From: Bacteroidales bacterium
GTDB taxonomy: Bacteria > Bacteroidota > Bacteroidia > Bacteroidales > UBA932
Direction: 5' to 3'
DNA: 64,000 nt
NCBI GenBank assembly: GCA_024401695.1
Contig: JAKSKN010000011.1
Span: 1-64,000, forward strand
A program made the position numbers and the translations under genes. Of the stretch, positions 1,528-42,276 are shown in pieces. Each line of letters begins with the position of its first letter. Positions within the stretch are counted from its first letter, which is position 1. The notes under the pieces are model-generated. The model searched no databases, was not told where the DNA came from, and saw nothing but the letters and a program-made list of their open reading frames with translations.

Positions 1528-2951
1528 TTCGCCTCGATGAGCCCGAGTTCAGGTGCGCGCTTGCGCATATACGCATCAGCTTCTTCGAAATTGTTGCCGA
1601 TTACGCCGTCAAGTATGGCCTCCTTGACCATTTCCTTGAGCTGGCCTATTTCTGAGCACGGTTCGATACCATAGACCTGCATCACGTATTCGCCGTTGAT
1701 CGGGTTCTTGAAATTGCGGATTGCGTCCTTCGCCTCAACCTCCACCAGTTTCTGCTTCACAAGTTCGAAATTGGACCTGATGCGGGCAACTTTCGCTTCG
1801 TTCTTTGAAGTGATGTCGGCATTGCAGAGCAGCATAAGGTCATCTATGTCATCGCCGGCATCGAAAAGAAGACGCCTTACGGCAGAATCGGTCACTTCAT
1901 CATCCACCAGCGCGATAGGCCTCAGATGAAGCCATACAAGCTTTTTCACATACTTCCCCTCGTCAATCGGAAGCTTGAGACGGTTGAATATCCCGGGTAC
2001 CATCTTGGAGCCGACGATTTCGTGACCGTGGAAGCTCCAGCCCACCCTGGAATCGTAACGCTTGGTCGCCGCCTTGCCGATATCGTGCAGGAGGGCGGCC
2101 CAGCGGAGCCACAGCTTGTCGCTGCAGGCAGCCACATTGTCAAGGACTGCGAGCGTGTGAGCGAAGTTGTCCTTATGACCGCGGCCGTCCACCGTCTCCA
2201 CGCCCTTGAGGGCGATGAGTTCCGGAAGGATATATTTGAGAAGTCCGGCCTCCTCCAAAAGGCAGAAGGCCATTGACGGCTTGCCAGTTGCAAGCATCTT
2301 GTTGAGTTCTTCGGAAATTCTCTCCTGCGACAGTATCTTCAGGCGTTCCGCCATCCTGCGCATCGAATCCATAGACTCGGGCACGATGTTGAACGTCAGT
2401 TCGGGAGTGGAGAGCTTGGTTGCAAAACGCACTGCGCGAAGCATACGCAGAGGGTCGTCAGAATAAGTTATATCAGGGTCGAGCGGCGTCCTGATGATAC
2501 CGGCGGCAAGGTCCCTGATACCCCCGAAAGGATCGACGAGAGCGCCGAAGTCCTCCTTCTGGAGAGAGAATGCCATGGCATTGATAGTGAAATCCCTGCG
2601 CAGCTGGTCATCCTCCAGCGTACCGTCCTCGACTATGGGTTTGCGCGACTCGCGTCGGTACGACTCCTTGCGGGCGCCTACGAATTCTATTTCGTCGCCA
2701 CCGTAGTGCAGCATAGCCGTGCCAAAATTCTTGAAATAGGAGACGTACTTGCCCGTCTTCTCCCCCACCGCCCTGGCGAATTCAATGCCGCTGCCCTCGA
2801 TGACCACGTCGATGTCGTTGCACTCGCGTCCAAGGAAACAGTCACGCACATAGCCACCGATGACAAAGGCTCTCACGCCCCTGTCAGCGGCCACGTCACT
2901 GAGGATGCGGAATATTTTCCTGTCCAGGAACTGCGCAGCGGTAGTCGACAT
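1524..2951 (-). CDS. cca: CCA tRNA nucleotidyltransferase / poly(A) polymerase family with HD domain
   Basis: A 475-residue nucleotidyltransferase. The head domain carries the GG motif (IGGYVRD, residues 31-37) and the two metal-binding Asp of DID (46 and 48), followed by RRDFTINAMA (118-127), typical of class II CCA-adding enzymes, and a central RNA-binding region. An HD phosphohydrolase domain follows (LLHDIGK, H289-D290). The family adds or repairs tRNA 3'-CCA; poly(A) polymerase activity cannot be excluded by sequence. I chose the ATG at 2951 rather than the GTG at 2963, because the GTG lies inside the upstream lipoprotein gene. It starts 8 nt after that gene, so it probably shares its promoter. 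Confidence 0.87.
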   Translation of the reverse strand: MSTTAAQFLDRKIFRILSDVAADRGVRAFVIGGYVRDCFLGRECNDIDVVIEGSGIEFARAVGEKTGKYVSYFKNFGTAMLHYGGDEIEFVGARKESYRRESRKPIVEDGTLEDDQLRRDFTINAMAFSLQKEDFGALVDPFGGIRDLAAGIIRTPLDPDITYSDDPLRMLRAVRFATKLSTPELTFNIVPESMDSMRRMAERLKILSQERISEELNKMLATGKPSMAFCLLEEAGLLKYILPELIALKGVETVDGRGHKDNFAHTLAVLDNVAACSDKLWLRWAALLHDIGKAATKRYDSRVGWSFHGHEIVGSKMVPGIFNRLKLPIDEGKYVKKLVWLHLRPIALVDDEVTDSAVRRLLFDAGDDIDDLMLLCNADITSKNEAKVARIRSNFELVKQKLVEVEAKDAIRNFKNPINGEYVMQVYGIEPCSEIGQLKEMVKEAILDGVIGNNFEEADAYMRKRAPELGLIEAK

Positions 2952-2959
2952 AGGAAATA

Positions 2960-3184
2960 TCACTTTGAAACGGCTTCTGCACCCATCTCCGAATCTGCAG
3001 GTGCCGGGGATTCCGACATCTCAGGCTGGGCCGGTTCCGGAATCATCTCGGTTGGAGGAGGTCCGTACATCAAAGGGCCGGGGCCATACATACAAGGGGC
3101 ATCTTCCGGATTGCAGGACACGAGTGACCCGAACCCCAAGGCAGCCAACGCTGCAAGACGGATTCTATTGATTTTTCTCTTCAT
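2960..3184 (-). CDS. Small lipoprotein of an rSAM/lipoprotein system (YGPxP motif)
   Basis: A 74-residue lipoprotein with a basic start, hydrophobic segment and lipobox LVSC (C24). The mature part contains a second Cys (C31) directly before two repeats, YGPGP (33-37) and YGPPP (40-44), then an acidic Pro/Glu/Ala-rich tail. It is divergent from a radical SAM enzyme that is followed by another small lipoprotein with CYGPAP. This matches the Bacteroidota rSAM/lipoprotein pairing (the TIGR04133/TIGR04134 families, as I recall them), whose lipoproteins carry a YG-P motif soon after the lipid Cys; here the usual longer downstream domain is missing. The promoter also probably drives cca, the recombinase and hpf, since cca starts only 8 nt downstream. 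The modification, if any, is unknown. Confidence 0.68.
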   Translation of the reverse strand: MKRKINRIRLAALAALGFGSLVSCNPEDAPCMYGPGPLMYGPPPTEMIPEPAQPEMSESPAPADSEMGAEAVSK

Positions 3185-3192
3185 TATAAATA

Positions 3193-3210
3193 CAAAAATA
3201 TCTATTTTTG
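3193..3210. promoter_or_regulatory. Palindromic divergent promoter (two TAnnTTTG boxes back to back)
   Basis: The sequence CAAAAATATCTATTTTTG is a perfect inverted repeat (8-bp arms, 2-bp centre). Each arm is an exact TAnnTTTG -7 box, one facing the lipoprotein at 3184 (8 nt to ATG) and one facing the radical SAM gene (5 nt to ATG 3216, 14 nt to ATG 3225). The two polymerase sites must overlap, and transcripts would be nearly or fully leaderless. Confidence 0.7.
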
Positions 3211-3215
3211 CTCAA

Positions 3216-4286
3216 ATGTCAAAGATGTCTCTCAAACAGATTGTCGCCTTGAACATATTCTCAAAGGTGATTGACGAAGAAGCCGCCCAGCATCCCCTGA
3301 GGCAGCTTTTCTGGGAAAGCACGCTACGCTGCAACCTCCGCTGCCGCCACTGCGGAAGCGACTGCAAGATATCGGACGTTCATCCCGATATGCCCTACGA
3401 GGACTTCGAGAAGGTCCTTCTCCGCATCAAGGAGGCGTACGATCCGCACAGAATAATGGTGATACTCTCAGGAGGCGAGCCGCTTATGCGGGAGGACATC
3501 ATCGACATCACCCGCCGCATCACGGCGCTCGGTTTCCCGGTAGGGATGGTCTCCAACGGCCGCCTGATGGATGACCGCAAGGCCGCCAAACTCGTGGCTG
3601 CCGGTCTGCGGAGCGCGACCATCAGCCTCGACGGGCTCGAGGAGGAGCACGACTGGATGCGCGGCGTCCCGGGCTCGTTCGGATACGCATCCCACGCCAT
3701 CGAACTGCTCAGCCACGCGCCCATCGCCTTCGACGTCGTAACCTGCGTCAACCGCCGCAACTACAAGCAGCTGAACGAGATAAAGGAACATCTCTTAACG
3801 CTAGGCGTCAAAGCCTGGCGGCTCTTCACCATATTCCCCGTAGGCCGCGCCGCTTCCGACCCGGAGCTCATCCTGAACCAGGAGGAGTACCGCGGCCTTA
3901 TGGACTTCATCATTGCCACACGCAAGGAAGGACGGATCCGCGCCAGCTACGCCTGTGAAGGCTTCCTTGGTCCATACGAAGGTAAGGTACGGGACCACCT
4001 GTTCACCTGCCAGGCCGGCCTGACGGTCGGCGGAGTGCGCATCGACGGAGGCATCTCCGCCTGCACAAGCATCCGTGCCCGCTACGACCAGGGCAACATC
4101 TACAAAGACGATTTCGTGGAAGTCTGGGAACACGGCTACGCCAATATGCGCGACCGCAGCTGGGCCCGTACGGAAGCCTGCGCAACCTGCAAATACTGGA
4201 AATGGTGCCACGGCAACGGGATGCACCTGCGCGACGAGGACGGGCGTCTCATCAAGTGCAATCTTGAAAAACTCGGACTTAAATAA
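3216..4286 (+). CDS. Radical SAM/SPASM enzyme of an rSAM/lipoprotein system
   Basis: A 356-residue radical SAM enzyme. The cluster motif is CNLRCRHC (C39, C43, C46), the SAM-binding motif SGGEP is at 85-89, and the C-terminal Cys-rich region has C247, C265, C283, then CATCKYWKWC (C322, C325, C331) and C348, consistent with auxiliary Fe-S clusters of the SPASM/twitch type. SPASM enzymes usually modify peptides. The flanking 60-75-residue YGPxP lipoproteins are the obvious candidate substrates (inference). The frame stays open upstream to 2706, but only the ATGs at 3216 and 3225 lie next to the promoter and at the start of the conserved protein; 3216 is chosen. Substrate and chemistry are not known. 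Confidence 0.82.
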   Translation: MSKMSLKQIVALNIFSKVIDEEAAQHPLRQLFWESTLRCNLRCRHCGSDCKISDVHPDMPYEDFEKVLLRIKEAYDPHRIMVILSGGEPLMREDIIDITRRITALGFPVGMVSNGRLMDDRKAAKLVAAGLRSATISLDGLEEEHDWMRGVPGSFGYASHAIELLSHAPIAFDVVTCVNRRNYKQLNEIKEHLLTLGVKAWRLFTIFPVGRAASDPELILNQEEYRGLMDFIIATRKEGRIRASYACEGFLGPYEGKVRDHLFTCQAGLTVGGVRIDGGISACTSIRARYDQGNIYKDDFVEVWEHGYANMRDRSWARTEACATCKYWKWCHGNGMHLRDEDGRLIKCNLEKLGLK

Positions 4287-4294
4287 TATATTTG
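4287..4294 (+). promoter_or_regulatory. -7 promoter box of the second YGPxP lipoprotein
   Basis: TATATTTG matches TAnnTTTG and begins right at the radical SAM stop codon. The first ATG of the lipoprotein follows after only 4 nt (the second, ATG 4305, after 10), implying an independent, probably leaderless transcript. Confidence 0.55.
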
Positions 4295-4298
4295 CAGA

Positions 4299-4487
4299 AT
4301 GGAAATGAAAAAAATCAAGAAAGCCGGTCTCAAGTTCGCCTGTCTTCTGTTCGGACTTGGCACATTCACGGCCTGTTACGGTCCGGCTCCATATATTGAA
4401 GAGCCTGTCCGGTCCGAAGAGCAGACATCCCCGGCAGATGACGCAGAGGGTTCCGATCCAGCCGAAGAATCCGGAAGCAACGAGTAA
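4299..4487 (+). CDS. Second small lipoprotein of the rSAM/lipoprotein system
   Basis: A 62-residue lipoprotein (60 if it starts at the ATG at 4305). The lipobox ends FTAC (C26), and the lipidated Cys is immediately followed by YGPAPY, matching the YGPGP/YGPPP motifs of the lipoprotein at 2960-3184. The rest is a short Glu/Ser/Asp-rich, low-complexity tail with no fold expected. It lies 12 nt after the radical SAM gene. I infer that it is a substrate or partner of that enzyme; nothing in the sequence gives the function of the product. Confidence 0.65.
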   Translation: MEMKKIKKAGLKFACLLFGLGTFTACYGPAPYIEEPVRSEEQTSPADDAEGSDPAEESGSNE

Positions 4488-4511: not shown

Positions 4512-4925
4512 ATGAAAAAAGTTCTTTATTTTCTCGGCGCAGCATTATTGATGCTGGCCGTTGCCTCTTGCGGCAAAATAGGTGACGATACACCGGCTCC
4601 TTATTACAAAGTTTCCACCAGCTGGAGTGTCCATAGCAGCACCATTTCAGGTATTACTGATTTTTCGCAGATTTTTGCCGTAACCGACAAATACATCAAT
4701 GAAACTTACAAAAGTGAAAGCCAGGCATTGTCCGTATACAATGATATACTCGGAAAAACAAAGGATGCCCAGTACAATGCCGCCGCCGACAGTTATGTTA
4801 GACTGCACATCACAAAATACATTGCGACCCGCGAGAGCGAGCACGTTGTCAAGTACGATGCCGATCCAAATTACAAGTCACCTGTAAGTCATATCTGGGA
4901 CGCAAAAGGTTCCCGTGACGAGTAA
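4512..4925 (+). CDS. Lipoprotein of unknown function
   Basis: A 137-residue protein with a lipoprotein signal peptide (MKKVLYFLGAALLMLAVASC, lipid Cys at 20). The mature part is hydrophilic and mixed in composition (YYKVSTSWSVHSSTISGIT, later YVRLHITKYIATRESEHVV), and looks like a small folded domain rather than a tail. I do not recognise a family. It lies 24 nt downstream of the YGPAPY lipoprotein and may be co-transcribed with the rSAM/lipoprotein set, though it lacks the YGPxP motif; it has APYYKV close to the Cys instead. Confidence 0.6.
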   Translation: MKKVLYFLGAALLMLAVASCGKIGDDTPAPYYKVSTSWSVHSSTISGITDFSQIFAVTDKYINETYKSESQALSVYNDILGKTKDAQYNAAADSYVRLHITKYIATRESEHVVKYDADPNYKSPVSHIWDAKGSRDE

Positions 4926-5050: not shown

Positions 5051-8000
5051 TTATTTATATACAACCGTAGCTGTAGGTGGGAAGGCGTTCTGGCCAACCT
5101 TGCAGCCCTTAGGGAGGATGACCTTTTCGATACTGGTGCGGTAGAAGGCGAACTCACCCACCTCCTTGCAGCATGCAGGCAGTTCTATCACACCATGTAT
5201 GCCCATTCGGTCGTAGAACAGGTATGCAGGGATGCGCTCAACCTTAGGACCGATTGTGATGGTCTTGAGGGTAGGCCATGTCGGTGACTGCTTGATGCCG
5301 ATCTCGTTATCGTCACACCAGATGGCGTTGTAATGCAGGGTTTCCAGGCTCTTGCACTGGAAGAATGAGTTTGTATGCCACTCGCGCACGTTCTCAGGGA
5401 TTGTAATCTCCTTGAGGTTGCTACAGTTGTTGAACGCGTACGTCTGGATTACCTGCAGGGTAAGAGGCATGCGCACAGAGGTGATCTTTTCCGGCTTGAC
5501 ACCCAGGTGACCTATGGTGTTGCGGTCCGGATTCGGATCGTCACCATATATGTAACCTATGCCCTCCGGCAGGTAAAGCATTCCATGGTCGAAGTAGATC
5601 TCATGGTGTTTCTCGGCCTTGTAGGCTGCAATGGCCTCAGGTGTGAGACGCCATGGACGCCATCTTGCCAGGGCCTCGCCCTCCAGCGGCACAAGGAGTC
5701 TGATCTTGGTGATATATCCGCTAGGCATCTGTCCGTCCAGGTCGTACCATCCGTTCTCGTAGCCGCCATGTCCAAGGTCCACATGAATTTGGAACTTTCC
5801 ATTCTTCATACGTGCTCCATCTATCACAAAGGCATGACCAACGGCGTCTTCGTGACCTTCCTTGTTCGGTCTGGTGCTGATGAGCAGCGGCCAACCGCGC
5901 TTGATGCTTTCCCTGATAGGAATCTCGCAGGTTGTAGGTAAGGATTCAGAAGCATTCTTGTCAAACATGGTAACACTGGCACGGTTGTACATCACTGGAT
6001 AATGATGCTCAATATTCATCCTCTGCGGTTCAGTCAGGTGGCAGTCTTTCGCTCCTTCAATCATCGGGTCTTCTCCTTGCTGCATAGCCAAGTCGTAAAG
6101 GAAATCGTCGTTGAACACAATGCGATTGCATATCACATTTGCAATGTTGTAAACAAAGTGGTCGGAAGCCAGCATCTCATCATTGTCATAGACGCTGAAT
6201 TCATCCTTGATCTGGTTGAATTCCTTGGCATCGGCATCAAAATCCGCAAACAGAATCTGGGTGTGGTTCTGGGTTGTAATGCTAGGACGTGAATTGTAGA
6301 CTGTGGAGCCCTGAGGAGGACCATAATGATGCAGGGCCTGTGCCATTGCCAGATGCTGGCAGATAGTCTTGTAGCCATTGGTGTACGGATTCTCCAGGTG
6401 GCGCTGACTCATATGAACCTTGAGTAGCGGCTCGGAATATACTTCCGTAACGCCTTCTGGCTTGCCTCCGTATGTATACTGGTAATCATGCTTGTTGTCG
6501 ATTGCCCATTTTTCGGCATAGCTGCCACGCTTTACAATAAGCGATGCGTCAAAGGTAATTGTACCATTTGTGAATTTTGTTTTGTATCCGTCAACAAGGA
6601 TGGTCTCCGTCCTTACAGGTATGTCTTTTACCGACGCAGGGACTTCGATTGTCTTGAGGTTAGAGCAACGGAAGAATGAGTTGTATCCGATGGACTCCAC
6701 GCCTTCCTTGAGGACCACTTTCTCCAGATATACACAATAGTCAAACGAGTTGTTTCCCAATGTCTTTACGGTGCCAGGGATGGTAACCTCCTTGAGGCCG
6801 ATACATTTGTAGAAAGCACAGATGCCGATATTGGTGAGCGATGAAGGGAATACGATCCTCGTTATCTCCCTATGGCCTCGGAAGGCATTCGTAGGCAATG
6901 ATTTTGTTCCCTCCGGGATGGTAAGAACACCATTCTTGATCCAGGACAGCATCTCAGGCGTAGCCGAGCAGATTTCAGTCTCGTTCGGATATGGGAGGAT
7001 GTTTTCCGAGCGCAACTCAGTACTGCCTGGTAATTCTGTGACAAAATCCTCATCCGGCGTCACATCGCGGCCAGCCAGCAGATCGGCCTTGCGGAAGAAA
7101 TGCTTCACATTCTTGCTGGTCAGGTATTTCTCTGCGTATGTTCCCTGTTCACATCCATAATAGGTATCCCTGTCAAATGAGCCCAGGTTTTCCATTTTCA
7201 GCAGGGAAGAAGGGAAATAGACCTTTGAATGATATTCCATCGGGATCGCATAGGTTCCCAGATTCTCAATTCCTTCAGGAAGGATAAAATCTTTGATACC
7301 CGTCTTTAAAAAGGCCCAGCTTTCTATCGAGCGGAGCGAAGCAGGAAAATTGATACTGGTGACTTTGGAGCAGTCTTTAAAAATCTCTTTTGGCAGATGA
7401 CACACCTTAGGACCAAGGATAATCTCCTCCACGTTAGGGCAGTCGGCGAAAGCCTGTTCGCCAAATTCCAGATATTCAGCGTTGTATTCTATCCTCTTGA
7501 GATTGGTACATCCGTCAAAGGTATCGTAGCCAAGATCTTTCATAGACTCCGGAATCACAAGGGTATGGAATGAAGTATTGTTCTTATACGCTTCATTCTC
7601 GATATAAGTGGCACCAGATTGGAATGAAAGAACACCATTCTTTATGGTACCTTTGGCCTGTACCTTATTCGGATTATAGTGCATTGACCAGCCGTCATGG
7701 AAATATTCAAATCTGTGATCCTTGGCAAACTGCTCGGCCCATGAGCCCTTTGTCACAATCAGGTCGGTTGCCAGAGAGAGGGCACCTTCGCCCAAATGTT
7801 CAAGGCTCCTTGGGAGTACAACCTCATGCGGGCACCAGACACGTGAATTACTATACTTCTTTTCTCCATGGAAAGCCTTGTCACCAATACTCTTCACGCC
7901 CTCACGAAGAACGAAGTAGTGTAAACCATTCCCTTCGAAAGAGAAGAACGCATAATCTCCGATGGTTTCAACATTTCCAGGAATCTCAATCAGCTGGGAA

Positions 8001-9271
8001 TTGAAACTGAGAGCGACGAACATACGCTGATCAATCAGACGTGTCTGCTTGCCAAAAGTGATATTGGATGTATGGCAATGCCTGAACGGAGACGCTGAGT
8101 TGTTGGTTGCGGCTGAACGGGCACAAACCGCATTGAAATAGATATTGTCGATATAGCTGTCGGAAAAGGCATTCTTGCCTATGGAAACCACAGAGGCAGG
8201 AATATGCAGTTCCTTTAAATTGACTCCCTTGTACTGATTGTCCTCGATGTGGGTGGTACCTTCAGGGATGCGGAGAATGCCATTGACCGGCTTTGCTGTG
8301 GTCAGCTTCTTTTCTGAAGATGCCTTTGGATAGCTGATTTCCTTGTAGCCGGTCTTTGATGCGGCAGGAACAAAGGTGAAATATCCCTTTTCCTTTGGAG
8401 ACACCGCGCGGCCCTTTGTCCATTTGGAAGTATTAGACGTTGAAGTCTTTGCAGAACTGGCAGTTGTAGTAGTCTTGGATGTTGCAGATGTCTTTGACGC
8501 AGAAGCAGCTGTGGCAGAGGTATTCGCTGCGATCTGGGTCGATGCCGTCTGCCTGGCACTAGTGGTAGAAGAAGTGCTTGTGGTGTTTGTAGTGCTTGTC
8601 GGGACTGTAGCCCTGGCGATGCTGTTTACGACGGAACCTCCTGTGCTCAGCTCGTCACATGCGTATCCATTCTCTGCAGCCCACCGGGCAGCGTATGAGC
8701 CGCTAGGGCAGATTATCTTGGTGCTCTTTGGGAACGCACCTTCGCCAATGGATTCAATCGATGCGGGCAAGGCGACTTCCTTGATGAGCGTAATGCCAAA
8801 TGCGAAAGAGCCCAAAGTCGTGACACCTTCCGGAATGGTGACTTCTGTCAGATTAGTGCTGCTGAAGGCGCTGTTTCCGATGACTCGCACCGATGATGGG
8901 ATATCAACTTTTGTAATTCCCTTGCAGTTGGTAAAAAGGCTGCTTGGAATTGTGGTGACATCCTCTCCAATCACGACCTCAGAAAGAGACTTACATTGAG
9001 CAAAAGCAGGAGAAAAGAGGCTGCCTGCCGAAGGGCAATCCTTAGCATTGTAGGTAACCTTTCGCAGGTTGGTACACCCCTTGAATGCTCCACCTCCAAT
9101 TTCTGTAACAGAAGAAGGAATGATCAGCTCTGTTATATTCGTATTGTCGGCGAATTGTTTGGCGGCAATACGAGTAGTACCTTCCTCTATTGCTGCGACT
9201 CCGCTCTCAATATTTTGAGCCGAAAGTGCAAGAGCCCACAGGGCTGATAGACAAAGTAAAAACCTTTTCAT
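5051..9271 (-). CDS. Secreted BspA-type leucine-rich repeat protein with embedded C10 (streptopain-like) protease domain
   Basis: 1406 residues with a signal peptide (MKRFLLCLSALWALALSAQ). BspA-type LRR_5 repeats (patterns such as IPSSVTEIGGGAFKGCTNL) occur at about 25-195, 325-945 and 1225-1406, with a Ser/Thr/Ala-rich linker at about 210-287. Between the last LRR blocks, about 945-1195, lies a peptidase C10-like domain. C971 in CQHLAMAQALHHYG aligns with the C-x-A-T-A-M-A-Q nucleophile motif, H1146 lies in GHAFVIDGA, and HVDLGHGGYENGWYDL matches the His-to-WGWGG region of SpeB. C10 enzymes are secreted cysteine proteases; BspA repeats mediate binding to host proteins or bacterial surfaces. 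The C-terminus is LRR, with no recognisable type IX sorting domain, so the export route beyond the periplasm is unclear. Confidence 0.82.
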   Translation of the reverse strand: MKRFLLCLSALWALALSAQNIESGVAAIEEGTTRIAAKQFADNTNITELIIPSSVTEIGGGAFKGCTNLRKVTYNAKDCPSAGSLFSPAFAQCKSLSEVVIGEDVTTIPSSLFTNCKGITKVDIPSSVRVIGNSAFSSTNLTEVTIPEGVTTLGSFAFGITLIKEVALPASIESIGEGAFPKSTKIICPSGSYAARWAAENGYACDELSTGGSVVNSIARATVPTSTTNTTSTSSTTSARQTASTQIAANTSATAASASKTSATSKTTTTASSAKTSTSNTSKWTKGRAVSPKEKGYFTFVPAASKTGYKEISYPKASSEKKLTTAKPVNGILRIPEGTTHIEDNQYKGVNLKELHIPASVVSIGKNAFSDSYIDNIYFNAVCARSAATNNSASPFRHCHTSNITFGKQTRLIDQRMFVALSFNSQLIEIPGNVETIGDYAFFSFEGNGLHYFVLREGVKSIGDKAFHGEKKYSNSRVWCPHEVVLPRSLEHLGEGALSLATDLIVTKGSWAEQFAKDHRFEYFHDGWSMHYNPNKVQAKGTIKNGVLSFQSGATYIENEAYKNNTSFHTLVIPESMKDLGYDTFDGCTNLKRIEYNAEYLEFGEQAFADCPNVEEIILGPKVCHLPKEIFKDCSKVTSINFPASLRSIESWAFLKTGIKDFILPEGIENLGTYAIPMEYHSKVYFPSSLLKMENLGSFDRDTYYGCEQGTYAEKYLTSKNVKHFFRKADLLAGRDVTPDEDFVTELPGSTELRSENILPYPNETEICSATPEMLSWIKNGVLTIPEGTKSLPTNAFRGHREITRIVFPSSLTNIGICAFYKCIGLKEVTIPGTVKTLGNNSFDYCVYLEKVVLKEGVESIGYNSFFRCSNLKTIEVPASVKDIPVRTETILVDGYKTKFTNGTITFDASLIVKRGSYAEKWAIDNKHDYQYTYGGKPEGVTEVYSEPLLKVHMSQRHLENPYTNGYKTICQHLAMAQALHHYGPPQGSTVYNSRPSITTQNHTQILFADFDADAKEFNQIKDEFSVYDNDEMLASDHFVYNIANVICNRIVFNDDFLYDLAMQQGEDPMIEGAKDCHLTEPQRMNIEHHYPVMYNRASVTMFDKNASESLPTTCEIPIRESIKRGWPLLISTRPNKEGHEDAVGHAFVIDGARMKNGKFQIHVDLGHGGYENGWYDLDGQMPSGYITKIRLLVPLEGEALARWRPWRLTPEAIAAYKAEKHHEIYFDHGMLYLPEGIGYIYGDDPNPDRNTIGHLGVKPEKITSVRMPLTLQVIQTYAFNNCSNLKEITIPENVREWHTNSFFQCKSLETLHYNAIWCDDNEIGIKQSPTWPTLKTITIGPKVERIPAYLFYDRMGIHGVIELPACCKEVGEFAFYRTSIEKVILPKGCKVGQNAFPPTATVVYK

Positions 9272-39650: not shown

Positions 39651-41399
39651 TTATTCAAACAGAAGTTTCCTGTCCTTTTCGAGCAGAGGCCCGACGACGT
39701 CTTCCGGGACAAATCTCCACGAACCCACCACTGACGGGTCATTGATCAACTCGCCGGTGATCTCGTCGTGCGACTTGAAGAAGTCATAGACCATATCACG
39801 GATCGCCGGATATTTAGTGACGATGCGCCCGGAGACCTGCTCAGGAGAAAGTCCGGCGCCCTCACTGATGGAGCCGCCACCTCCGCTGGCCCTGTACGAA
39901 GTCATAGCCACATTATAGTACGCATCCATATCGAACGCCGTACCGTCGGCAAGAGTGGTGATATTGACACGCGAGCCGTTCGGGCGGGTCACGTCCACAG
40001 AGTAATTGAGTCCTCCAGTGGAATCAAAATTATAAGAACGGTTTACGAAAGACCAATCCGAAGAGCCATCGCGGTCAGATCCCTGCTTCTCTATCATAAG
40101 GACGTGGCTGCCAGGCGTCGTAATCCACATATTGTATGTGAACTCCATCGCGGCCTTGATTTCCGAGCCCTTCATCCTGACTACGAAAAGTTCATTTTCA
40201 TACGGATAGACCGTAAACATATCGTTATAGACAAGAGTCCCTCCTTCCACAGTTCCGTCATATGTAAGCGGGGCAGCAAATGAAAGCTGCGCCTCCGGGA
40301 CACTCAACTGGACCCTGTGGATGAGGCCGACGTAATCGTTCATCCCGAAATAGGCGTCCCTTGACCGGATACAGCTCTGAAGGGTGCCGACTTTCTGGTT
40401 CGTGAATGCCTTGACGGCCTCGAATTCTTTTTCGAAGCGGGACTTCAGCACCCAGTCGACCTTATTCTTGTCAATCGTACATATCTCTCCGCTCACGTCC
40501 TTGGATATCAGCCTCTTGCCGGCAAAGCGCAAATCAATCACGGCGTGGCCGACATAACGGGCCTTCGCACCGGCATTCAGATAAACCATCCCCTGCTTTG
40601 ACGCAATGTACCTTGAATGGTCGTGACCTCCCACAAGCACATCGACACCCTTGAGGCTGTTGAAAAGACAGAGCGACTGGGACTCAAGTTCTTCAGGAAC
40701 CCCGATGCCGGTACCGCTGTGCGTAACGACGATGACCACGTCCGGCTTCTCCTTCTTGATGACAAAGTCAATCAAGGCCTGTGCATAAGGGACAAGTGAA
40801 AGGAATTCCATCCCGGTGAACTTGTTTTCAGGGAGCCACTCCCTGATATTCGGATTGCCGAAACCGATGATCGCGACATTGGCCCCGGCTTTTTTCACCA
40901 TTTTGTAAAGAGGGAAATAAGTACCGCCGTCAGACTGGCGGAGAACGTTTCCTGCCAGCCAGGGAACGTCGATGGCGTCCATCTCGGCGGAGACCTTGTC
41001 GTAGACGCTGTGACCGGTCTCGATGTCGTGATTGCCGACTACGACCGCGTCATATCCGATGGCTTTTGCAAGACGGGGGAACGGATGCGGCTGATTCTGG
41101 TCGGCAATATTGTTGAAATAATATGTGGCATTGTCTCCTTGAAGGCAGTCTCCTGCATCAACAAGGATCACATTATCAGCACCGACCGCCGATCTGAGGC
41201 TGTCGACATAATATTTCACGGACATCAGGCTGGCCTTTGTCCGGCCGCCTTCCACGTATGGCTCGTCGAACCATGCCCCGTGGACATCTCCGGTTTCCAC
41301 AACGTGGAGTTGCCGGGTATTCTGCGCGAAAGCCAACCCCAGAGGGATGCAGAAGAGGGAAATTGCGCAGGTTACTAGTTTTATGTAATGGCGATTCAT
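39651..41399 (-). CDS. Periplasmic 5'-nucleotidase / 2',3'-cyclic phosphodiesterase family protein
   Basis: A 582-residue exported protein (signal peptide ending GLAFAQ). The N-terminal metallophosphatase domain shows the five family blocks: GDVHGAW, DAGDCLQGD, VVGNHDIE, VVTHSGTG, GGHDHSR. The C-terminal 5'-nucleotidase domain (about 345-530) contains LSFAAPLTYDGTVEGGTLVYNDMFTVYPYENELF and KGSEIKAAMEFT. Members hydrolyse extracytoplasmic nucleotides to nucleosides; precise specificity is not fixed by sequence. The open frame runs on upstream, but the ATG at 41399 sits 4 nt from its promoter box. Confidence 0.86.
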   Translation of the reverse strand: MNRHYIKLVTCAISLFCIPLGLAFAQNTRQLHVVETGDVHGAWFDEPYVEGGRTKASLMSVKYYVDSLRSAVGADNVILVDAGDCLQGDNATYYFNNIADQNQPHPFPRLAKAIGYDAVVVGNHDIETGHSVYDKVSAEMDAIDVPWLAGNVLRQSDGGTYFPLYKMVKKAGANVAIIGFGNPNIREWLPENKFTGMEFLSLVPYAQALIDFVIKKEKPDVVIVVTHSGTGIGVPEELESQSLCLFNSLKGVDVLVGGHDHSRYIASKQGMVYLNAGAKARYVGHAVIDLRFAGKRLISKDVSGEICTIDKNKVDWVLKSRFEKEFEAVKAFTNQKVGTLQSCIRSRDAYFGMNDYVGLIHRVQLSVPEAQLSFAAPLTYDGTVEGGTLVYNDMFTVYPYENELFVVRMKGSEIKAAMEFTYNMWITTPGSHVLMIEKQGSDRDGSSDWSFVNRSYNFDSTGGLNYSVDVTRPNGSRVNITTLADGTAFDMDAYYNVAMTSYRASGGGGSISEGAGLSPEQVSGRIVTKYPAIRDMVYDFFKSHDEITGELINDPSVVGSWRFVPEDVVGPLLEKDRKLLFE

Positions 41400-41403
41400 A
41401 TTA

Positions 41404-41421
41404 CAAAAATAATTATTTTTG
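41404..41421. promoter_or_regulatory. Second palindromic divergent promoter
   Basis: CAAAAATAATTATTTTTG is a perfect 18-bp palindrome composed of two outward TATTTTTG (-7) boxes with a 2-bp centre, the same geometry as 3193-3210. It is 4 nt from the nucleotidase ATG and 6 nt from the GSCFA ATG. Confidence 0.7.
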
Positions 41422-41427
41422 CGACAA

Positions 41428-42276
41428 ATGAAACTATTTACCGAAGTCAGCATCGACAAATTGCCCGTAAATATAAGCCTGGAGGACAAGATTGTTGTCC
41501 TCGGGAGCTGCTTCGCCGATGAGATCGGGGCCAGAATGGCTGCGGCCGGGTTCGACGTATGCATCAATCCATTCGGCACCCTTTACAACCCGGTGTCCAT
41601 CGCCGATGCGGTCTCGCGCCTGGAAAGCGGAGCCCCGTTCACGCTTTCGGACTGCGTGGAAATGGGAGCTGGAGCAGGCCTTTTCTGCTCTTTCCACCAC
41701 CACACCTCCTTCGCCCGCGGGAGCGCTCTGGATTTTACAGGAAATGCAAATGCCAGACTGACGGAAGCGTGTGATTTCTGGCGCAACAGCAACAAGCTCA
41801 TCATTACGCTCGGCACCGCTTTCGTATGGAGGCACCAGCCCGAGGACACCGTCGTTGCCAACTGCCTCAAAAGACCGGGCAACGAGTTCACACACAATAT
41901 GTTGAGCATCGAAGAGACCACAGCCCAGCTGGAGCGTGTGCTCTCCTGCGGCAAGGAGATCATATTCACAGTCTCCCCTATCCGGCATCTTGGCGACGGC
42001 GCACATTCGAACACCCTGTCCAAGGCAACGCTGCAACTCGCGCTCGCATCCTTTGACGGCCGTCCGGGTACAGCGTACTTTCCGGCATACGAGATACTGA
42101 ACGACGAACTGCGGGACTATAGATTCCACGCAGAAGATCTGGTGCACCCAAGTCCCGCAGCCATCAGCTGTATCTGGGAGAAATTCGTTGAAGCCGCCGT
42201 CCCGAAAGACGAGCATCCGAAGTTGGCTGTCAATGAGAAAGCCTCACGACGGCTCCTTCACAGAAATCTACACTAA
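41428..42276 (+). CDS. GSCFA-domain protein (SGNH-hydrolase-like)
   Basis: A 282-residue cytoplasmic protein with the family-defining GSCFADEIG (S27 is the putative nucleophile), NPFGTLYNP, FTVSPIRHLGDG and a C-terminal DLVHPS that would supply the Asp/His of an SGNH-type catalytic site. The GSCFA family has no established substrate. ATG 41428 is used; the TTG three codons earlier is within the promoter palindrome. The 3' end overlaps the converging GntR gene by 9 nt. Confidence 0.85.
   Translation: MKLFTEVSIDKLPVNISLEDKIVVLGSCFADEIGARMAAAGFDVCINPFGTLYNPVSIADAVSRLESGAPFTLSDCVEMGAGAGLFCSFHHHTSFARGSALDFTGNANARLTEACDFWRNSNKLIITLGTAFVWRHQPEDTVVANCLKRPGNEFTHNMLSIEETTAQLERVLSCGKEIIFTVSPIRHLGDGAHSNTLSKATLQLALASFDGRPGTAYFPAYEILNDELRDYRFHAEDLVHPSPAAISCIWEKFVEAAVPKDEHPKLAVNEKASRRLLHRNLH

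Follow-up and report, generated by a model that had tools for sequence, protein, structure and literature searches.

The DNA considered here is the first 64,000 nucleotides (nt) of contig JAKSKN010000011.1, forward strand, from a Bacteroidales bacterium (assembly GCA_024401695.1; 2.65 Mb in 71 contigs), and is referred to below as the window. At positions 2960-4487 it carries a compact group of three genes in the order lipoprotein A (minus strand), a radical S-adenosylmethionine (rSAM)/SPASM enzyme (plus strand) and lipoprotein B (plus strand). The locus is treated below as a candidate modification system in which the enzyme would act on a Tyr-Gly core in both lipoproteins. An earlier note made from the letters alone had described an rSAM enzyme between two tiny lipoproteins. 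That description holds for all three genes and their positions, the lipoproteins having 74 and 62 residues. Both do flank the enzyme; the arrangement needs one correction, in that A is divergent and only B is co-directional. The features are as follows (positions are those of the window).

2960-3184, minus strand: lipoprotein A, 74 residues, lipobox Cys24, X = Met at both of its X-Tyr-Gly sites
3074-3091, minus strand: site 1 of lipoprotein A, MYGPGP, residues 32-37 (translation, DNA motif scan)
3053-3070, minus strand: site 2 of lipoprotein A, MYGPPP, residues 39-44 (translation, DNA motif scan)
3193-3210, no strand: perfect palindrome CAAAAATA-tc-TATTTTTG, whose arms are TAnnTTTG promoter-like boxes
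3216-4286, plus strand: radical SAM/SPASM enzyme, 356 residues, ATG at 3216, TIGR04133
3330-3353, plus strand: radical SAM motif CNLRCRHC with Cys39, 43 and 46 (translation, alignment of relatives)
3954-3992, plus strand: pre-SPASM motif CEGFLGPYEGKVR, including Cys247 (alignment)
4008-4259, plus strand: SPASM region with Cys265, 283, 322, 325, 331 and 348 (Pfam, alignment)
4287-4294, plus strand: promoter-like box TATATTTG ahead of lipoprotein B (motif scan)
4299-4487, plus strand: lipoprotein B, 62 residues, second ATG at 4305, lipobox Cys26
4374-4391, plus strand: site of lipoprotein B, CYGPAP, residues 26-31, where X is the lipobox Cys itself

Lipoproteins A and B both have a signal peptide and lipobox as judged by a pattern and hydropathy script only. 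In A the lipobox LVSC is followed by CNPEDAPCMYGPGPLMYGPPP, and the Tyr of the YG block comes after eight residues from the lipid Cys. In B the lipobox is FTAC, the lipid Cys opens the sequence CYGPAPY and the Tyr stands immediately after it. Among the 15 lipobox open reading frames (ORFs) called by the script in the window, YG-x(1-3)-P within 50 residues is found in two, A and B. At the DNA level the pattern TAY-GGN-CCN-NNN-CC occurs three times in 64 kb, each time inside the A or B gene (0.79 expected), and three or more occurrences were reached in 5 of 100 shuffles. The YGPxP motif alone is thus only mildly unusual in the window; its significance comes from conservation across relatives.

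This conservation was examined at TIGR04133 loci, TIGR04133 being the family of the enzyme. The loci comprise the best-scoring matches (about 30 each) from searches of the order, the family and the genus, matches from the same genome, and 74 named relatives; the sample is non-random, consists mostly of best-scoring matches and retains near-identical loci. From 167 loci, five without a recognisable enzyme ORF were set aside to leave 162, and removal of 15 identical enzymes left 147 distinct loci. Lipoproteins were called by script, with some spurious ORFs among the calls; those that shared over 60 nt with the enzyme, or lay beyond 2500 nt, were dropped, and "near" means within 300 nt. The motif YG-x(1-3)-P is present in 111 of 125 near, upstream, same-strand lipoproteins and in none of 109 far lipoproteins situated downstream or on the other strand. 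Intermediate values were obtained for near same-strand downstream lipoproteins (14/31) and near opposite-strand ones (6/30, made up of 5/25 downstream and 1/5 upstream, the last being the window's own A). Far same-strand upstream lipoproteins (19/70) were counted apart, and that set includes extra tandem partners. If a YG partner is defined as one on the same strand within 2500 nt, or on either strand within 60 nt, 122 of the 147 distinct loci have one.

The 146 distinct partners hold 181 sites, one in 114 partners, two in 29 and three in 3. The residue X is M in 78, E in 49, C in 26, L in 7, A in 6, K in 5 and others in 10, and Pro lies two residues past the Gly in 138 sites. In these partners, which were preselected for YG, 189 sites read [MCEKLA]Y-x-(1-2)-P, and Gly follows the Tyr in 175 of them. 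The earlier note had seen unrelated tails joined to a shared YG block, and the wider set agrees: partner tails align poorly, one YG core occurs with tails or domains of differing kinds, and YG-x-P is conserved at TIGR04133 loci. Tails of 30 short partners are acidic (34% Asp+Glu, 5% Lys+Arg); for example, short partners of the closest relatives read ...LGLNVFTACYGPAPG and then continue into an acidic tail. The signal peptide is also distinctive. A hydrophobic-Gly-hydrophobic motif occurs in 133 of 146 partners versus 9 of 59 script-called control lipoproteins, and could serve in recognition.

Partner length varies. The earlier note had longer lipoproteins as usual in rSAM/lipoprotein pairs; a minor correction is that short ones are not uncommon (61 of the 146 distinct partners have at most 100 residues, 85 are longer). 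The usual partner family is TIGR04134. When nine partners were scanned against it, the five with more than 100 residues gave three scores above the cut-off, one below it (31.4 bits) and one with no match (L028, 110 residues); the four short ones gave two weak matches (23.6 and 14.8 bits) and two with none. A TIGR04133 and TIGR04134 search had been proposed at the outset. It identified the enzyme, with 504.3 bits on TIGR04133, and gave no TIGR04134 match for the lipoproteins. A and B have no Pfam or NCBIfam match at E ≤ 1, and therefore are not the usual partner; the genome as a whole has no TIGR04134 match over the 39.8-bit cut-off. The window's locus resembles the TIGR04133/TIGR04134 system in having a full member of the enzyme family and adjacent lipoprotein partners with the same YG core. 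It differs in that A and B lack a folded domain, A is divergent, and three sites are spread over two proteins. One enzyme can have both partner kinds: at locus L066 a short CYGMPPG partner and a TIGR04134 protein (72.8 bits) stand in a row. At L077 the signal and CYGPA core of the short form are fused with a domain like that of TIGR04134, whose 38.5 bits fall narrowly below the cut-off of 39.8. Because of this fusion and this tandem pair, we read the short lipoprotein kind as a probable reduced form of the long TIGR04134 kind.

Co-occurrence was examined in 250 congeneric genomes with two profiles. Profile A1, built from 17 short partners including the window's B, is circular in that its rows were taken from enzyme loci. 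Profile A2 was built from 12 lipoproteins of a second kind, that of the unlinked CYG lipoproteins described below; 8 of the 12 are not from enzyme loci, though they had been found with A1. A1 matched 41 genomes at E ≤ 1e-3 and A2 matched 82. Together the profiles found short Tyr-Gly lipoproteins in 82 of the 135 genomes that carry the enzyme (E ≤ 1e-80) and in 4 of the 115 that lack it (Fisher p = 2.6e-24, a value that overstates the evidence because genomes of one genus are not independent). In this one genus, then, such lipoproteins are not widespread without the enzyme; the earlier note had said that a wide presence without it would refute its reading. The neighbourhood comparison that it proposed shows that YG-x-P is conserved among the lipoproteins of TIGR04133 loci and largely confined to them. 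Its suggestion that modification falls on the YG block is the inference with the best support, given motif specificity and co-occurrence within the genus.

Linkage was followed by comparing coordinates. Each of the 22 A1 matches at E ≤ 1e-9 has an enzyme no more than 60 nt away. Of 19 weaker matches, 6 adjoin an enzyme, 5 of them by coordinates and one as judged from an enzyme motif in the DNA of its locus, 2 (G817 and G844) could not be placed, and 11 looked unlinked. Wider DNA was obtained for 10 of these 11 (all but G799): G748 proved to be linked, and the other 9 are short CYG lipoproteins with no rSAM-like ORF in the stretch. An exclusive position of YG lipoproteins beside the enzyme is ruled out by these nine. 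They (L224-L229 and L231-L233) occupy two positions that recur across genomes of the genus, 6 adjoining a threonyl-tRNA-synthetase-like gene and 3 an 841-residue outer-membrane-type protein, both neighbours being named by eye. With G799 taken in place of G748, TIGR04133 occurs elsewhere in 7 of the 10 genomes (E ≤ 1e-20); at that threshold it was not detected in G664 (92% complete), G725 (68%) or G799 (85%). The unlinked lipoproteins are possible in-trans substrates.

The enzyme aligns with TIGR04133 over residues 6-353 (profile positions 1-349 of 350; cut-off 425 bits; NCBIfam). This is a known but uncharacterised rSAM/lipoprotein family, labelled 'hypoth_equivalog' (NCBIfam). In Pfam the enzyme matches PF04055 with 74.4 bits (gathering threshold 29.5) and PF13186 with 26.5 bits (21.5), and the CxxxCxxC motif is present. 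The additional cysteines listed in the earlier note (Cys247, 265, 283, 322, 325, 331 and 348) are correct and are invariant in all 147 distinct TIGR04133 enzymes, the window's included. Cys247 is specific to TIGR04133 among the rows compared, while Gly249, Glu255 and Arg259 are common to TIGR04133 and most enzymes of the TIGR04103 or TIGR03913 type. An AlphaFold2 model (predicted local distance difference test score 90.7) has a SPASM-enzyme fold by structure comparison, and the top 12 rows of a VIA-align comparison are all peptide- or protein-modifying SPASM enzymes. No splicease structure is in that list, an absence that is uninformative.

TIGR04133 enzymes are common among relatives. At E ≤ 1e-60 such an enzyme is present in 69 of the 295 genomes sampled from the order and in 195 of the 398 from the taxonomic family, and the named relatives of the enzyme are metagenome-assembled genomes of Bacteroidota, many of herbivore gut or rumen origin. 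The rSAM/lipoprotein system occurs outside Bacteroidota too: a Treponema saccharophilum plasmid (L175) carries both a TIGR04133 enzyme (451 bits) and its TIGR04134 lipoprotein (43.7 bits), the lipid Cys of which opens CYGMPENYY. Among viral contigs, searched for close relatives only, one stretch matched a pattern and none was confirmed.

A chemical precedent for this core comes from the spliceotides of the cyanobacterium Pleurocapsa. There PlpX, together with the truncated RRE (recognition element for ribosomally synthesised and post-translationally modified peptides, RiPPs) PlpY, removes tyramine from Xaa-Tyr-Gly (PMC11002830). PlpXY acts naturally on MYG and LYG sites, and the test tags described in PMC10533398, PIRPLYGLPI, PIRPGYGLPI and AVAAGYGVVFP, all have the form X-Y-G-x(1-3)-P; the last is probably the PlpA3 MYG core with Met changed to Gly, to go by its name, M5G. 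The same paper states that ketoamide formation is leader-independent and that splicing costs C8H9NO (PMC10533398). Splicing is described elsewhere as widespread, with products that can inhibit proteases (PMC10373908). By these descriptions, the two systems share an X-Tyr-Gly-x(1-3)-Pro core, an rSAM/SPASM enzyme, tolerance of several residues at X and multiple sites per precursor. The core matches splicease sites closely in order, spacing and tolerance. The two systems differ in that the window's substrates would be signal-peptide lipoproteins, whereas those of PlpX have Nif11- or nitrile-hydratase-type leader peptides.

The earlier note named no chemistry. Since X-Tyr-Gly with a free X is the PlpX splicease site, PlpX-type splicing is proposed here. 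The proposal starts from observations: the gene identities, the conservation and specificity of the motif, the co-occurrence, and the match to splicease sites. The rSAM/SPASM enzyme would modify the two flanking lipoproteins as its substrates, in the cytoplasm and prior to Sec export and lipidation. Its target would be X-Tyr-Gly, which B has once, as C-YG-PAP, and A twice, as M-YG-PxP, and modification of this site is highly probable from motif specificity. The reaction would most likely be excision of tyramine at X-Tyr-Gly, with the short lipoproteins as minimal substrates. By analogy with PlpX this is our best single guess, held with modest confidence. The signal peptide would act as a RiPP-type leader, removed after modification. 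One alpha-ketoamide in B and two in A would come to lie beside the anchor, and after lipidation the products would be displayed as short chains with an acidic tail and a lipid anchor.

Splicing is already known as a reaction, and the gene pair at the level of hypothetical families. Our literature search found no paper on TIGR04133 or TIGR04134 and no reaction assigned to TIGR04133. In the literature passages covered, a link of the pair to splicing, minimal lipidated substrates and a lipobox Cys as X did not appear. A named chemistry, with a mass change predicted for each site, would make TIGR04133, now a 'hypothetical equivalog', directly testable.

TIGR04103 is presumably the PlpX family, going by its naming and by a precursor in Nostoc. 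On a Nostoc plasmid a TIGR04103 enzyme (853 bits) adjoins a Nif11 precursor ending in SIALYGLPPELF (LYGLPPELF) and a 71-residue protein without family match, a layout resembling the one described for plp. By eye, an X-Tyr-Gly neighbour is present at 8 of 12 TIGR04103- or TIGR03913-type loci (L168, L170, L172, L174, L179, L180, L181 and L183). The Bacteroidota loci among them (L168-L173, from a search of the phylum) score 205-417 bits, below the TIGR04103 cut-off. L172 belongs to a different genome of the order. There, directly 3' of the TIGR04103-like rSAM gene, lies a protein of 214 residues whose C-terminus has six tandem KYGYP(C/G) repeats (2955-3599, plus strand) and which looks like a multi-site substrate. 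At L170 a 165-residue protein with C-terminal LLYGTPPVPLYQAPSK (2619-3116, minus strand) lies just 5' of such a gene. Neither YG protein has a Pfam family at E ≤ 0.1.

The TIGR03913 'GDL motif' system has a related enzyme and DUF1843 peptides with PYGPAM, LYGGAM or PYGVAI near the N-terminus, and differs in that these short peptides have no signal peptide. At L180, L181 and L183, on Azospirillum plasmids, YG is present in 5 of 8 DUF1843 peptides and MYMAT in 3 of 8; the GDL-motif system too may act at X-Tyr-Gly. A further known system, anSME (anaerobic sulfatase-maturating enzyme), makes formylglycine from a sulfatase Cys or Ser and differs from the present case in having no Tyr-Gly motif. In a signature comparison of 47 TIGR04133, 11 TIGR04103/TIGR03913-type and 8 other SPASM rows, 8 columns were common only to TIGR04133 and the TIGR04103/TIGR03913 type, versus 3 and 4 for the other pairings.

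Several observations weigh against PlpX-type splicing. The window's enzyme scores 130.2 bits on TIGR04103, far under the cut-off of 725, and the families AhbD (heme b synthase, 144 bits), TIGR04053 (142) and NirJ2 (139) score higher on it; for two further TIGR04133 enzymes TIGR04103 comes sixth and fifth. In the row comparison above, mean identities (23.4-27.9% versus 19.1-24.5%) have overlapping ranges. Phylogenetic kinship with PlpX was not obtained: TIGR04133 forms one group (90/90), and its sister group is not resolved by the tree, which draws on 70 of the 115 rows prepared, has long outgroup branches and includes no sequence of AhbD. The similarity of the enzyme to TIGR04103 is thus a weak, supportive argument. 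TIGR04133 also has Cys247 in place of the fourth SPASM Cys of C-x2-C-x5-C-x3-C, so its clusters may differ from PlpX-type ones. In the window's own copy, Val109 (3540-3542) replaces a Trp found in 146 of the 147 distinct enzymes, and its activity may therefore be altered. No PlpY-like RRE partner was recognised among the ORFs around the enzyme, where no dedicated RRE search was made. By the definition used, 25 of 147 loci have no YG partner, and four (L132, L136, L153 and L159) have no script-called lipoprotein within 500 nt. Some sites lack the Gly, for example MYSVRP and MYATP, and 4 of the 12 TIGR04103/TIGR03913-type loci (L169, L171, L173 and L178) have no clear X-Tyr-Gly neighbour. In the FtsZ tests of PMC10533398 (tags with LYGLPI, GYGLPI or GYGVVFP), modification occurred at 2 of the 16 placements listed, so that the presence of an XYG core does not always suffice.

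A different radical SAM reaction on the same core is a tentative alternative with a real share of the probability. An aryl C-C or C-O crosslink of the Tyr to a neighbour or to the Pro, epimerisation, or a thioether could each be considered, for SPASM enzymes catalyse many such reactions. Besides the Gly, the core is constant in its Tyr and Pro, the best structural matches of the enzyme include SuiB and thioether-forming maturases, and the diversity of SPASM reactions is borne out by one review. Two places past the Tyr, however, the residue is free (V, T, P, S, C, M, I, A, G or another), which weakens the cyclophane or crosslink reading, kept here as a rival; where that residue is Gly, a three-residue cyclophane would lack the beta-carbon it needs. 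The combination of a free X with a Gly conserved right behind the Tyr is instead what a splicease motif predicts.

That the enzyme acts elsewhere, on the lipobox Cys, the anchor or the signal peptide, with YG-x-P as a docking or sorting motif, is unlikely. The unusually conserved signal peptide would suit such a role, as would the 26 of 146 partners in which X is the lipobox Cys itself. Yet the core also occurs far from the anchor (offset 41 in L156), and 32 of the 146 partners have it more than once; neither would be needed for a single role in docking or anchoring. A still more remote explanation, to which we give very little weight, is a non-functional pairing in which a small-molecule or heme-type rSAM enzyme has the lipoproteins as passengers. 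Heme-pathway families score as high as peptide maturases on this enzyme, its first Foldseek match is BlsE, which we take to act on a nucleoside, and the loci without a recognised YG partner would fit as well. Passengers would account poorly for the specificity of the motif at TIGR04133 loci, for a co-occurrence that includes unlinked lipoproteins, and for the peptide-maturase matches in VIA-align.

If splicing at X-Tyr-Gly does occur, backbone-spliced residues would be carried on the surface of common gut bacteria. In the CYG class (B, and 26 of 146 partners) lipidation and tyramine splicing would converge on one residue, the lipobox Cys. Surface display with a protective or protease-inhibitor role is possible, if doubtful. 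A fuller and rather more speculative version is that Bacteroidales display lipid-anchored proteins with spliced alpha-keto-beta-amino acids as the first or near-first residue, those of the CYG class starting with a lipidated alpha-keto-beta-homocysteine; the ketoamides might form a reactive or protease-inhibiting surface layer, and the unlinked copies might be served in trans.

The control regions of the locus share one feature. All three genes have a TAnnTTTG box, which we take to be the Bacteroidota promoter consensus, shortly 5' of a start codon, and the boxes are predicted promoters on that assumption. The two boxes of the divergent pair, lipoprotein A on the minus strand and the enzyme on the plus strand, make up the palindrome at 3193-3210. 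In the whole window TAnnTTTG-N2-12-ATG occurs 13 times versus 4.2 in local shuffles (largest value 11). Exact TATTTTTG-N3-12-ATG occurs 5 times versus 0.33 expected, one of the five preceding a 5-residue ORF. Back-to-back TATTTTTG boxes lie a few bases before ATG between divergent genes at 3193-3210 and at 41397-41430. Boxes so near the ATG raise the question of whether transcripts may be nearly leaderless.

Two other genes lie close to the locus. A 137-residue lipoprotein without a YG motif is encoded 24 nt 3' of lipoprotein B (4512-4925, plus strand), with no match above curated cut-offs. The minus strand at 5051-9271 encodes a protein of 1406 residues that combines leucine-rich repeats of the BspA type with a Peptidase_C10 domain.

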